A stretch of 14,092 nt of DNA. Source: Blautia sp. GTDB lineage: Bacteria > Bacillota > Clostridia > Lachnospirales > Lachnospiraceae. The notes beneath the pieces were generated by a model. That model was not told where the DNA came from. It worked only from the letters and a program-made list of their open reading frames with translations, and made no database searches. The position numbers and the translations under genes were made by a program. Location of the stretch: the NCBI GenBank assembly GCA_017420455.1, contig JAFOJB010000190.1:1-14092 (forward strand), in the 5' to 3' direction. Positions 7,977-11,879 of the stretch are shown one piece after another (position 1 is the stretch's first letter; the number at the start of each line of letters is the position of its first letter).

Positions 7977-8195
7977 ATGTCGAAATCTGATGTAATTGAA
8001 GTAGAAGGGACAGTTCTCGAAAAGCTCCCGAACGCCATGTTCAAGGTGGAACTGGAGAACAAGCATGTCGTGCTGGCGCATATCAGCGGAAAGCTTCGTA
8101 TGAACTTTATCCGGATCCTGCCGGGCGACAAGGTAACCCTGGAACTTTCCCCCTATGACCTTTCCAAAGGAAGGATCATCTGGAGAGATAAATAA
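7977..8195 (+). CDS. infA: translation initiation factor IF-1
   Basis: IF-1 occupies the A site of the 30S subunit during initiation and assists IF-2 and IF-3. The 72-residue product is an OB-fold S1-type domain. It begins [20 protein letters not shown] and includes [20 protein letters not shown] and [20 protein letters not shown], the conserved IF-1 core, at the exact usual length. ATG 7977 follows AGGAGG at 7965-7970. In-frame codons upstream back to 7917 lack a binding site and are not part of the protein. An intrinsic terminator follows 21 bases after the stop. Confidence 0.98.
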
Positions 8196-8196
8196 A

Positions 8197-8240
8197 GATC
8201 ATAAATAATGATGATCAGGAGGCGCTTCGGCGCCTCTTTT
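8197..8240 (+). terminator. intrinsic terminator after infA
   Basis: A G/C-rich stem, AGGAGGCGC (8217-8225) against GCGCCTCTT (8230-8238), closes on a TTCG tetraloop with a C-G closing pair, the very stable UUCG type. A short T-run ends at 8240. Immediately upstream, GATCAT (8197-8202) and ATGATC (8211-8216) form a second 6-bp hairpin abutting the first. The U-run is short (CUUUUGUU), so read-through into rpmJ is likely to some extent. Confidence 0.88.
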
Positions 8241-8270
8241 GTTACAGTCCACGGCCTCTTTGTATAACGT

Positions 8271-8320
8271 TGAAAAAAAATAAAAAAACACTTGCAAAAC
8301 CCAGGGGGAAGTGTTAGTAT
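8271..8320 (+). promoter_or_regulatory. housekeeping sigma promoter with UP-like A-tract, driving rpmJ-rplQ
   Basis: TTGCAA (8292-8297) and TAGTAT (8315-8320) are separated by exactly 17 bases and match the -35 and -10 consensus at 4 of 6 and 5 of 6 positions. Directly upstream of the -35, 8271-8289 is almost all A with one T and one C, resembling the UP elements of rRNA and ribosomal-protein promoters. Transcription would begin near 8327. A weaker overlapping candidate is TTGTTA (8239-8244) with TATAAC (8263-8268), spacing 18. Placement directly after a terminator supports a real start. Confidence 0.75.
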
Positions 8321-8326
8321 AACCTT

Positions 8327-8419
8327 CAGGCGCGTCCTGTGTATAGAATCAGTGCGCCCTTATGCAGTCAGAACCGGGACACACCCGGGAGCGAGTAACC
8401 AGTAGAGAGGAGGATTCCA
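8327..8419 (+). promoter_or_regulatory. structured 5' leader of rpmJ with possible kissing loops
   Basis: From the predicted transcription start to the rpmJ GTG there are about 93 bases. GGCGC (8329-8333) pairs with GCGCC (8354-8358), leaving a 20-base loop. CCGGG (8374-8378) pairs with CCCGG (8384-8388) around ACACA. The first loop contains TGTGT (8338-8342), the exact complement of the whole second loop, so a five-pair loop-loop contact is possible. AGAGGAGG (8406-8413) precedes the GTG. A leader this long and structured suggests post-transcriptional control; the ligand or protein is unknown. Confidence 0.5.
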
Positions 8420-8533
8420 GTGAAAGTAAGATCATCTGTAAAACCAATCTGTGAAAAGTGCAAGGTTATCAAAAGAAAAGGATCGATCAGGATCATCTGC
8501 GAAAACCCGAAGCACAAACAGCGCCAGGGATGA
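8420..8533 (+). CDS. rpmJ: 50S ribosomal protein L36, zinc-binding (bL36)
   Basis: L36 is the smallest ribosomal protein and binds 23S rRNA near the base of the L7/L12 stalk region. The 37-residue product begins [20 protein letters not shown] and ends KHKQRQG. C11, C14, C27 and H32 form the zinc site of the zinc-dependent (C+) type. The start is GTG 8420, 6 bases after AGAGGAGG (8406-8413). It lies downstream of a terminator and promoter, and is separated from rpsM by an unusually long non-coding stretch. Confidence 0.96.
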
Positions 8534-8587
8534 TGCATAAAGCATTCCGATGCGCTTTTGATCATGCGGCTGCTTTGTTAACATGTA

Positions 8588-8778
8588 TTGCCTAATACCG
8601 AGAGGCAAGAAGGGCAGAACGCCCTGACATTCGGAAAGGCTGCCGGAACGCCGAAAGGCAGCTGGGCGTATTACCGAGGCGCCCCAATTAGGAATGGAAA
8701 GCTCCGGGCTGATGCATCCCATTTCACCTTGCAGGAATCTGCAAGTGATGTACGCCGCGGGAGGCTTTCAGAAGAAAG
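8588..8778 (+). ncRNA. candidate structured RNA between rpmJ and rpsM (possible rpsM leader)
   Basis: The 269-base gap 8534-8802 has no convincing gene but is dense in perfect stems. They are: TTGCCT/AGGCAA (8588-8593/8603-8608); AGGGC/GCCCT (8611-8615/8621-8625); GGCTGCC/GGCAGCT (8638-8644/8657-8663); GGGCG/CGCCC (8664-8668/8680-8684); AATGG/CCATT (8693-8697/8719-8723); a 10-bp stem with one bulge (8724-8734/8739-8748, GAAT loop); and CTTTC/GAAAG (8765-8769/8774-8778). The first and fourth loops both carry TACCGAG. GGCGTA (8665-8670) is also complementary to TACGCC (8751-8756), so an alternative long-range fold exists. I do not recognise a known riboswitch core. A cis-acting leader for rpsM-rpsK-rpsD-rpoA-rplQ is the likeliest role. 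An open frame at 8588-8782 lacks a binding site. Confidence 0.6.
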
Positions 8779-8802
8779 ATAGAATAATGGAGGAAACAGT
8801 AC

Positions 8803-9171
8803 ATGGCTCGTATAGCTGGTGTAGATTTACCAAGAGAGAAACGCATTGAAATCGGTCTTACTTACATTTATGGAATCGGCAGATCCAGTGCAGATAAGAT
8901 CCTTGCTCAGGCCGGAGTAAATCCGGATATCCGCGTAAGAGATCTTTCAGACGAAGACGTGAAGAAGATCAGTTCTGTCATCGAGGAAACGATGATGGTA
9001 GAAGGTGATCTCAGAAGAGAAGTTGCTCTGAATATCAAGAGACTGCAGGAAATCGGATGCTACAGAGGTATCCGCCATCGTAAAGGCCTTCCGGTTCGCG
9101 GTCAGAAGACCAAGACAAACGCCAGAACACGCAAGGGTCCGAAGAGAACTGTAGCAAACAAGAAGAAATAA
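8803..9171 (+). CDS. rpsM: 30S ribosomal protein S13 (uS13)
   Basis: S13 sits at the top of the 30S head, bridges to L5 and 23S rRNA, and its basic tail reaches P-site tRNA. The 122-residue product starts [20 protein letters not shown] and contains the helix-two-turn-helix region ([20 protein letters not shown], 21-40), RRLQ-type helix and [20 protein letters not shown] (86-104 region). It ends in a lysine-rich tail. GGAGG at 8789-8793 lies 9 bases before ATG 8803. It opens the alpha-operon part and follows the structured gap. Confidence 0.97.
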
Positions 9172-9228: not shown

Positions 9229-9621
9229 ATGGCGAAAGTGACGAAAAGAACGACAAAGCGTCGTGTCAAGAAAAACGTTGAACACGGACAGGCACATATC
9301 CAGTCTTCCTTTAACAATACCATTGTCACTCTTACAGACAATGAAGGAAATGCTCTTTCCTGGGCAAGTGCCGGTGGTCTGGGATTCAGAGGTTCAAGGA
9401 AATCTACCCCTTATGCTGCACAGATGGCTGCAGAGACAGCAACCAAGGCTGCTCTGGTTCATGGCCTGAAGACTGTTGATGTTATGGTAAAGGGTCCGGG
9501 AAGCGGCCGTGAAGCTGCGATCCGTGCTCTGCAGGCATGCGGCCTGGAGGTTACCAGCATCCGCGACGTGACACCGGTTCCCCACAATGGATGCCGTCCA
9601 CCGAAGCGTAGAAGAGTCTGA
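9229..9621 (+). CDS. rpsK: 30S ribosomal protein S11 (uS11)
   Basis: S11 is in the 30S platform, near the E site and the anti-Shine-Dalgarno end of 16S rRNA. The 130-residue product shows [18 protein letters not shown] (20-37), [19 protein letters not shown] (47-65), [14 protein letters not shown] (88-101) and the C-terminal [17 protein letters not shown], all diagnostic. The start is ATG 9229. Unlike its neighbours it lacks a good Shine-Dalgarno site: the nearest purine runs are AAGGAAAG (9204-9211) and AGG (9215-9217), too far or too short. It may depend on rpsM translation. Confidence 0.97.
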
Positions 9622-9639: not shown

Positions 9640-10233
9640 ATGGCAGTAAATAGAGTTCCTGTCCTGAAGAGATGCAGATCACTGGGCCTGGATCCCATGT
9701 ATCTTGGTATAGATAAAAAATCCACCAGACAGCTGAAACGTGCCAACCGGAAGGTATCCGAGTACGGCCTGCAGCTGAAAGAAAAGCAGAAAGCAAAATT
9801 CATCTACGGCGTTCTGGAAAAACCCTTCCATAATTATTATCTGAAGGCCGTCAGAATGTCCGGAGCTACCGGCGAGAACCTTATGGTCATGCTGGAGAGC
9901 AGACTGGACAACGTTATTTATCGTCTTGGGTTTGCCAGAACCAGAAGAGAGGCACGTCAGATCGTAGATCACAGACATGTTCTTGTAAATGGAAAGATCG
10001 TGAACATTCCCTCTTATCTGGTAAAGGCAGGAGACGAGATCGAGATCAAAGAAAGAGCAAAGAGCTCCGAGAGATACAAACAGATCCTGGAAGTGACAGG
10101 CGGAAGACTTGTTCCTGCATGGCTGGATGTAGATCAGGAGAATCTGAAGGGAACGGTCAGAGAATTGCCCACCAGAGAAGCAATCGATGTTCCCGTTGAC
10201 GAAATGCTTATCGTCGAGTTGTACTCCAAGTAA
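9640..10233 (+). CDS. rpsD: 30S ribosomal protein S4, zinc-free type (uS4)
   Basis: S4 nucleates 30S assembly by binding a five-helix junction in 16S rRNA, and forms the mRNA entry helicase with S3 and S5. In E. coli it represses its own alpha operon, and in Bacillus subtilis its own gene. The 197-residue product has the N-terminal domain ([15 protein letters not shown], then [20 protein letters not shown]) and an S4 RNA-binding domain at about 84-136 ([20 protein letters not shown], then [14 protein letters not shown]). Only one cysteine (C12) is present near the N terminus, so this is the form without a zinc knuckle. AGGAGGT at 9624-9630 precedes ATG 9640. It is the prime candidate for a regulator of the structured gap upstream of rpsM. 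Confidence 0.97.
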
Positions 10234-10292
10234 TCCGGATAAAGCACATTCCGCAGGACTTGTTGACCAAAGATATAGGAGGGAATTATATA

Positions 10293-11252
10293 GTGTTTGA
10301 TTTCAACAAACCGAAGATCGAAATTGCTGAGATATCTGAAGACAAGAAGTTTGGCAGATTTGTGGTAGAACCTCTGGAAAGAGGGTATGGCACAACCCTT
10401 GGCAACTCCCTCAGAAGAATTATGCTGTCCTCCCTTCCGGGCGCGGCAGTAAGTCAGGTTAAGATCGATGGTGTTCTTCATGAATTCAGCTCCATTCCCG
10501 GAGTAAAGGAAGATGTCACGGAGATCATCATGAATCTGAAAAGCCTGGCAATCAAAAACAACAGCTTGGACAACGATCCGAAGACAGCCTACATCGAGTG
10601 TGAAGGAAAAGGTATTGTCACGGCAGCTGAGATTCAGGCAGATCAGGATATCGAGATCATGAATCCGGAGCAGGTGATTGCAACCTTGAACGGCGGGAAG
10701 GATTGCCGGCTGACCATGGAGCTTACGATCACCAAAGGGCGCGGCTATGTCAGCGCCGACAAGGGCAAGACGGATGATATGCCGATCGGCGTTCTTGCGG
10801 TAGATGCGATCTATACTCCTGTGGACAGAGTAAACATGATCGTGGAAAATACCCGTGTAGGCCAGGTTACTGATTATGATAAACTGACACTCGATGTTTA
10901 TACAAATGGTACATTGGATCCTGACGAGGCAGTAAGCCTTGCGGCAAAGGTGCTCAGCGAGCATCTGAGCCTGTTCATCGATCTTTCCGAGAACGCGAAA
11001 AACGCGGAAGTCATGATCGAGAAAGAGAACGATGAAAAGGAAAAGGTACGGGAGATGAGTATCGACGAACTGGAGCTTTCGGTTCGTTCTTACAACTGCC
11101 TGAAGAGAGCAGGAATTAACACAGTAGAAGAGCTCTGCAGCAAAACCTCTGATGATATGATGAAGGTCCGGAACCTGGGAAGAAAGTCCCTGGAGGAAGT
11201 TCTCGCGAAGCTGAAAGAACTTGGCCTTCAGCTGCAGCCCTCGGAGGAATAA
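10293..11252 (+). CDS. rpoA: DNA-directed RNA polymerase alpha subunit
   Basis: The alpha subunit dimerises to scaffold RNA polymerase assembly, and its C-terminal domain contacts UP elements and activators. The 319-residue product has the N-terminal assembly domain with [20 protein letters not shown] (23-42), the GVLHEFS block (60-66) and [19 protein letters not shown] (184-202). A charged linker at about 236-255 leads to the C-terminal domain with [20 protein letters not shown] (260-279) and the helix-hairpin-helix [12 protein letters not shown] (292-303). The start is GTG 10293: AGGAGGG (10278-10284 region) is about 9 bases upstream and the protein then begins [10 protein letters not shown]. 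The upstream in-frame TTG at 10260 would read through the binding site. Confidence 0.97.
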
Positions 11253-11342: not shown

Positions 11343-11879
11343 ATGGCAAAGTACAGAAAACTGAGCAGAACAGCTGATCAGAGAAAAGCATTACTTAGGA
11401 ACCAGGTTACCATGCTGCTTTATAGAGGCAAGATCACTACCACTGAAGCAAAGGCAAAAGAGATCCGCAAGATCGCTGAAGGCCTGATCGCCATGGCTGT
11501 TCGTGAGAGAGACAATTTCGAGACCGTTACCGTTACCGCAAAGGTTCCCAGAAAGAACGCGGAAGGCAAAAGGGTGAAAGAGGTTGTAGACGGCAAGAAG
11601 CAGACTGTATATGATGAAGTTCAGAAACAGATCAAAAAGGATGCTCCGAGCAGACTTCATGCCCGCCGTCAGATGCTGAAGGTATTTTATCCGATCAGAG
11701 AAGTGCCTGAGAAGGGTGCTGGAAGAAAGAAAAATACCAAAACTGTAGATCTGGTAGATAAGATGTTTACCGAGATCGCTCCGAAGTACGCGAACCGCAA
11801 CGGCGGTTATACCCGTATCGTAAAGATCGGACCGCGTAAAGGCGATGCCGCGATGGAAGTTATCATCGAGCTGGTATAA
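11343..11879 (+). CDS. rplQ: 50S ribosomal protein L17 (bL17) with lineage insertions
   Basis: L17 lies near the exit-tunnel side of the large subunit beside L22 and L32. The product is 178 residues, against about 120 in Bacillus subtilis. Core blocks are intact: [20 protein letters not shown] (4-23), [12 protein letters not shown] (104-115), and [20 protein letters not shown] with [17 protein letters not shown] (142-178). Two extra segments interrupt them: about 45 residues between roughly 55 and 102, rich in lysine and glutamate, and a shorter one at about 117-135. Long L17 proteins of this kind occur in Lachnospiraceae. GGAGG (11330-11334) is 8 bases before ATG 11343; an in-frame ATG at 11328 overlaps that site and is rejected. 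It is the last gene of the cluster. Confidence 0.95.

Follow-up and report, generated by a model that had tools for sequence, protein, structure and literature searches.

The closest described system to the locus considered here is the S4-Clostridia leader, a family reported by Eckert and Weinberg in 2020 (PMC7247131). The passages of that paper drawn on here list the regulated genes as rpsM, rpsK, rpsD, rpoA, and rplQ and, since other leaders have S4 as their ligand, consider it the likeliest one; the paper's own ligand assignments are presented as hypotheses of varying confidence, with S4 coming from gene content. In the same passages, GAAA stands at the molecule's 5' end and is compared with the GUAA of the Firmicutes and Fusobacteriales S4 leaders, and it is called unclear whether the Clostridia motif imitates rRNA. 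According to the sections of PMC7779021 used here, new Rfam families, including r-leaders, derive from that group's alignments, and a figure legend names RF03140; in the sections of PMC11109978 covered, the term rpsM does not appear.

Here, we analyze a window of 14,092 nucleotides from Blautia sp. (contig JAFOJB010000190.1), the whole stretch of DNA under study, in which a long gap between rpmJ and rpsM had been predicted to hold an undescribed structured leader. The gap is real, and its length was confirmed: 269 bases lie between the end of rpmJ (8533) and the start of rpsM (8803). The flanking genes encode L36, S13, S11, S4, RNA polymerase alpha, and L17 (NCBIfam), such that the S4 gene, rpsD, is a member of the operon two genes past rpsM. 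L17 (11343-11879) is 178 aa long, and its match to the family model is split in two, suggestive of an internal insertion. Based on the evidence set out below, we read the gap, with a probability of about 0.72, as the leader of rpsM-rpsK-rpsD-rpoA-rplQ, containing an S4-Clostridia four-way junction and, as a separate putative site, a hairpin termed M3. The features of the locus are as follows.

8534..8802, + strand: whole leader, from the rpmJ stop codon to the rpsM start codon
8789..8793, + strand: Shine-Dalgarno of rpsM, GGAGG, by sequence (unpaired probability 0.85)
8803..9171, + strand: rpsM (S13), first gene 3' of the leader
9229-9621: rpsK, after rpsM
9640-10233: rpsD, after rpsK
10260-11252: rpoA open reading frame, after rpsD
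11343-11879: rplQ, after rpoA

Folding energy by itself makes a weak and unconvincing case, the gap (-85.9 kcal/mol) being only mildly beyond shuffled sequence (mean, -78.9; z, -1.51; 20 of 200 shuffles as stable), and the case for structure therefore comes from comparison among relatives. Could the gap simply encode a small protein? An open frame of 64 aa is present (TTG start, 8588-8782), but the lengths of 31 gaps from the genus fall across all three frames (11, 11, and 9), the longest stop-free stretch in these gaps varies from 33 to 96 aa, and covariation agrees with RNA helices; we regard a coding role as highly improbable. The structure had been drawn as a chain of seven stems. A series of stems is indeed there, but the layout is a junction followed by the bulged hairpin M3 and not a plain chain. 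A hairpin at the 5' end drawn by eye (8539-8544/8571-8576) has a pair probability of 0.01.

The core of the element belongs to a known family.

8634..8692, + strand: Rfam RF03140, S4-Clostridia leader (47.1 bits against a gathering score of 37.5)

This match runs the full length of the model (positions 1-55 of 55), is the sole Rfam match above its own cut-off in the window, and occurs at a single place in the assembly (completeness, 77.9%). It stands before rpsM-rpsK-rpsD-rpoA-rplQ, and the alignment and helix statistics show two adjacent hairpins flanked by GAAAGG, CUGGG, and CCCAAUUAGG. Because the match exceeds the cut-off, “undescribed” was wrong for 8634-8692, a possibility that the original prediction had allowed; the word still fits the junction flanks and M3, since the Rfam scan that it had called for returned RF03140 at 8634-8692 and nothing over M3 (8697-8769). 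Its central proposal, that the segment regulates rpsM-rplQ in cis and perhaps binds S4, is in line with what the portion of PMC7247131 used here proposes. No other leader family in Rfam reached an E value of 1 in the window. A RAGATH-7 match at 2320-2473, among ribosomal protein genes, scored 21 bits against a cut-off of 111.8 and is most likely due to chance. RF03140 was found in 42 of 150 same-family genomes (34 above the cut-off) and class-wide in 6 of 291, of which five belong to the same family and one is a weak match elsewhere.

The 55-position, two-hairpin RF03140 model appears, from the aligned sequences, to be a fragment of a four-way junction composed of P1, P2, P3, and P4. To derive the extended structure, the flanks of the 42 RF03140 matches were compared. 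Upstream of GAAAGG, most of these loci carry UAUUGCUUnnUAAUACCGG...CCGG or a variant, and downstream they carry CAAUUAGGGACAAUAU or a variant; these flanks form a closing helix, P1, and an arm, P2, both beyond the Rfam model, with P3 and P4 being the Rfam hairpins. In the window, the outermost helix, P1a, is weak and P1b is a perfect CCUAAU/AUUAGG.

8585..8697, + strand: extended S4-Clostridia four-way junction (covariance models R1 and R2)
8591..8596, + strand: 5' strand of closing helix P1b, CCUAAU, pairing with AUUAGG 8687-8692 (pair probability 0.66-0.76)
8687..8692, + strand: 3' strand of P1b, AUUAGG, single-stranded in the Rfam model
8598..8634, + strand: P2 arm, CCGA 8598-8601 / UCGG 8631-8634 (pair probability 0.94)
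8611-8615/8621-8625, + strand: inner hairpin of the P2 arm
8638..8663, + strand: P3, first Rfam hairpin, with AAA 8635-8637 just before it (pair probability 0.83-1.0)
8664..8684, + strand: P4, second Rfam hairpin, with UUACCGAG in its loop (pair probability 0.95-1.0)

Since MAFFT on full elements put P1, P2, or P4 strands out of place, the first model was seeded with 13 loop-shortened sequences, and natural sequences were then realigned to the model. Model R1, for which the window was not a seed, places the window at 8585-8697 (25.4 bits; E value, 8e-4). At E values up to 1, it matched 58 of 100 sources. These comprise 40 of the 42 RF03140 loci, one of which is the window, and 18 of 58 named rpsM loci; all were retained, including a few weak matches (E values of 0.05-0.7) and one partial match. 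Among further named loci, 1 of 22 matched. The resulting model R2, with 58 rows that include the window, scores the window at 50 bits.

Across the 58 natural rows, 94.2% of 1609 cells are paired, and in 24 of the 29 pairs both partners change. The covariation score reaches 0.589, compared with 0.224 for shuffled alignments and no more than 0.091 for slid ones. This alignment was fitted to the structure and is hence biased towards it, and so a tree-aware test in the manner of R-scape was written and applied at E<0.05 to two sets, the 58 rows and the 45 non-seed rows. In the 58-row set, 10 of 29 pairs are significant, two of them in P2 (22-90 and 24-87); in the 45-row set, 11 of 29 are significant, one in P1b (16-242) and one in P2 (22-90). 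The P1b pair is significant solely in the 45-row set, and P2 pair 22-90 is significant in both. In neither row set is any pair outside the junction structure significant, and in neither does P1a hold an individually significant pair. A whole-gap alignment of 31 same-genus sequences yielded no pair at E<0.05, the best being a pair of M3 at 0.22. Conservation and covariation of the stems among relatives, on which the prediction could have failed, came out in favor of structure, with significant pairs in the junction and in M3.

R2 is confined to the family in the genomes sampled, a family that most names among the closest rpsM relatives identify as Lachnospiraceae. It matches 46 of 150 same-family genomes, leaving 104 without a match, and 5 of 196 in an order-wide sample, all of the same family; within the genus, it matches 49 of 60 genomes and 30 of 32 better assemblies. 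In each set there is one site per genome, and whole-genome counts for R2 and RF03140 are lower bounds, as the search scores only some candidates. Indeed, six genomes missed in the family and order searches (L190-L193, L038, and L039, the last being one of the rows that built R2) gave direct R2 matches of 41-67 bits. A locus of another family with a weak RF03140 match (L194) gave no R2 match at E values up to 10. Within the searched Rfam release and papers, the junction helices beyond the RF03140 model are undescribed: no description of the enlarged junction or of M3 was found in the open-licence literature, the supplements of PMC7247131, with further borderline stems, lying outside it. With the full junction, the set of positions that S4 might contact is different, and searches can use a longer model.

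An alternative hairpin overlaps P1b.

8588..8608, + strand: alternative hairpin P*, UUGCCU 8588-8593 / AGGCAA 8603-8608, with loop AAUACCGAG; excludes P1b

In the window, the pair probability of P* is 0.01-0.03. Among 30 same-genus gaps, the best stem around ATACCG is at P* in 26 and at P4 in 4, and 29 of the gaps have a stem of at least 5 bp around this word, against 24% with shuffled flanks. Forcing P* costs 1.7 kcal/mol relative to the window's best fold, nothing in one relative (L153), and 6.8 in another (L158); in a third (L159), both forced folds are about 4.4 above the free fold. By these energies, a P1b/P* switch would be possible in some members only, and any function of P* is putative. 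In other relatives (L009, L017, and L021 among them), an upstream AAUAUAC is pairable by eye with a GUAUAUU lying across the 5' strand of P1; this may be a switch of its own, and it is not seen in the window.

The loop word recurs. The 30 genus gaps hold 63 copies of UACCG against 6.3 when shuffled, at least two per gap, in gaps of close relatives and with some copies being part of the junction itself. In the window, the copies (8594-8602 and 8670-8678) lie at the start of P2, this copy also being the P* loop, and in the P4 loop. Local folds of 120 copies of UACCG(A) in 115 gaps put 55 in a hairpin loop, 57 in paired positions, and 8 elsewhere. Often set in loops of different arms, the word looks as if it were a repeated recognition motif. 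In several loci (L046, L050, L051, L054, L059, L085, and several that match model R3), a hairpin with an AUACCG(AG) loop, UUACCGAGG in L050, replaces the junction; this hairpin of junction-less genera is possibly a reduced S4 site.

A second recurrent word stands further upstream.

8566..8572, + strand: GCGGCUG word (M1), counted apart from a like word in P3

GCGGCUG occurs in 32 of the 42 gaps with an RF03140 match, in 33 of the 54 named gaps that are 120 nt or longer, in 28 of the 30 gaps from the genus, and in 18 of the 19 from M3 matches; the shuffled means are 0.20-0.75. It is also present somewhere before rpsM in all 28 M3 loci. It is among the most conserved features of the gap, junction-less genomes included. 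In relatives, it stands before the junction, with a hairpin after it in most cases seen; the window keeps the word and has lost the hairpin. Two words of the window are exact complements of E. coli 16S rRNA, GCGGCUG (8566-8572) to CAGCCGC (522) and CAUUUCACC (8720-8728) to GGUGAAAUG (690), and both may be due to chance. A look for mimicry of the S4 site of 16S rRNA, covering the literal short words CATTTC and GCGGCTG in one E. coli rRNA operon, found neither in the same sense.

M3 lies between the junction and the ribosome-binding site.

8697..8769, + strand: M3 domain, basal stem GAAAGC 8697-8702 / GCUUUC 8764-8769 (pair probability 0.87-0.96)
8713..8752, + strand: M3 core, outer helix 8713-8718/8747-8752 (0.59-0.98), inner helix 8728-8734/8739-8745 (0.71-1.0), single U 8746
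8719-8727, + strand: M3 bulge, CCAUUUCAC, nine bases

The last stem had been predicted to end 10 bases before the rpsM binding site; the last supported stem, that of M3, in fact ends at 8769, about 20 bases 5' of GGAGG. Segments similar to the basal stem are seen by eye in the genus. CCATTTCAC is found near rpsM in 29 of 30 other same-genus gaps (shuffle expectation for CATTTCA[GC], 0.1). The outer helix varies in step, being UGCAUC/GAUGUA in the window and UGCACC/GGUGUA, UAUGUC/GACAUA, UACGUC/GACGUA, or UAUACC/GGUAUA in others.

Other genera carry a sister form, type A, with a ACAUUUCAG bulge (in full, CACAUUUCAG) followed by a purine facing a purine. In 39 rows, this covarying mismatch is A·G in 11, G·A in 27, and A·A in 1, and a GC on the 3' side is constant in all 39. 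The type-A model found one site each in 28 of 150 same-family genomes (28 genera; a lower bound), and all 28 sites lie upstream of rpsM, with the CATTTC word 67-132 nt from its start. Wider sampling gave matches in 4 of 196 genomes across the order and in 1 of 291 across the class; every one belongs to the same family, and M3 was not found outside it in either set. Nine of the 28 genomes have a junction match; direct search of the locus in the other 19 gave a single chance-level junction match (14.2 bits) and, under permissive Rfam filters, no RF03140.

On a tree built from rpsM, 8 pairs of M3 are significant in the 39 type-A rows, the A·G/G·A mismatch among them, and 3 are significant in 30 rows of the window's form; no pair outside the proposed structure is significant in either set. 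Rows were admitted if they had CATTTCA[GC] and at least three inner and three outer pairs. As the word was an entry condition for rows and sites, its constancy there is no evidence; the rule favors the word and the required pairs and leaves the purine mismatch, the fourth pairs, and the 3'-side GC free. An M3 structure score of at least 9 was reached by 38 of 41 CATTTCAG sites, against 4.3% with shuffled flanks, and by 37 of 38 CATTTCAC sites, against 7.0%, in a sample that is not independent, some sites having been taken from model matches. The type-A model gives the window's M3 7.8 bits (E value, 2), under a chance match of 8.5 bits, and so we tie the two forms together by position, CAUUUCA, and like structure; on these grounds they are probably related. 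Aligning both forms together did not give a clean result, and that alignment was left unused.

As a module, M3 is conserved in these leaders and apparently undescribed in the searched Rfam release and papers. A search of 8196-8830 gave no Rfam match over 8697-8769 at E values up to 5, and the M3 part of 20 relatives and of the 19 junction-less loci gave, at E values up to 1, only subthreshold Alpha_RBS matches. Is M3, then, merely neighborhood sequence, with the published two-hairpin motif the only functional part and P1, P2, and M3 no more than surroundings, remnant, or spacer? The Rfam model alone does match well, and the M3 word is near rpsM in just 13 of 42 RF03140-match gaps. This reading is nonetheless quite improbable: P2 pairs are significant in the tree-aware test, M3 pairs are significant on the rpsM tree, including a purine mismatch that was not an entry condition, and M3 precedes rpsM in 19 genomes without the junction.

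A conserved bulge between covarying helices makes M3 look like a putative binding site, probably a second one for a regulator. Which molecule might it bind? One possibility, for which we would give somewhat less than even odds, is that M3 is a new class of regulatory RNA restricted, in the genomes sampled, to one Lachnospiraceae-type family. Its helix, bulged by ACAUUUCAG or CCAUUUCAC, would respond to a second product, so that two sensors would stand in series here and M3 would act without the S4 junction in other genera; S13, S11, L17, RNA polymerase alpha, or another factor would be candidates. Alternatively, M3 could be a second contact for S4 itself, with S4 gripping both the junction and M3, and with the AUACCG hairpin plus M3 serving genomes without the junction. 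S4-like motifs follow rpsM in all 48 loci that extend 1,200 bases or more past it, junction or not (the other 17 of 65 loci are shorter and showed none), and the idea that rpsD is missing where the junction is missing was dropped, as it does not hold in loci long enough. ATACCG also occurs in 12 of 19 M3-match gaps, 18 of which lack the junction, and in 11 it sits in a stem of 5 bp or longer, compared with 34% when the flanks are shuffled. M3 is, however, missing from many junction-bearing genomes, where S4 would thus not need it, and we consider a double S4 contact unlikely.

Building on what was observed, namely, the match to a known family, the larger structure, its conservation and covariation, and the neighboring genes, we propose that the gap would form the 5' or an internal leader of the rpsM-rpsK-rpsD-rpoA-rplQ mRNA. 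In this model, S4 in excess over rRNA would repress the operon by binding to the junction, S4 being the candidate ligand by gene content, and M3 would serve separately as the target of an RNA-binding protein, in all likelihood one that the operon itself encodes. Lying some 20 bases 5' of the Shine-Dalgarno sequence, M3 is well placed for an effect on ribosome entry. The M3 bulge could be paired by eye with an AAAUGG that precedes the Shine-Dalgarno sequence, but this pairing was dropped because many of the M3 genomes compared do not retain AAAUGG. Does the leader act on translation start at all? Consistent sequestration of the Shine-Dalgarno sequence was not found (unpaired probability, 0.85 in the window and a mean of 0.42 over 31 sequences), which, along with the position of the leader within a gene cluster, would suit an action on transcription, through Rho or RNase access or pausing; a simple scan of 8100-8900, however, returned no terminator-like site, and we hold this alternative to be rather doubtful. 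Returning to the model of an S4-bound junction with M3 as a separate site, M3 was found only before rpsM in the 150 family genomes sampled, and a two-input control of the alpha operon can be tested directly. Given that rpoA lies in the same operon, we speculate that the leader may couple ribosome supply to the supply of RNA polymerase.

How does this leader compare with known systems? The Firmicutes rpsD and Fusobacteriales S4 leaders, compared by description only, are similar in S4 autoregulation. The S4 pseudoknot of the E. coli alpha operon (RF00140, Alpha_RBS) shares the operon, action at rpsM, and the ligand, here a proposed one. RF00140 did not match the window at E values up to 1 or 8196-8830 at E values up to 5, and in relatives all of its matches fell under the gathering score of 38, the best (29.0 bits, L041) overlapping the conserved start of rpsM. 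The nearest is S4-Clostridia RF03140, which the leader resembles in sequence and structure across the 55-position model, in its place before rpsM, and in the operon rpsM-rpsK-rpsD-rpoA-rplQ. The RF03140 model, however, has two hairpins and an unpaired CCCAAUUAGG tail, whereas here that tail pairs as the 3' side of closing helix P1b, a P2 arm precedes GAAAGG, and M3 follows. This leader is thus not a new kind of system; it is a known family with an enlarged structure and an extra module.
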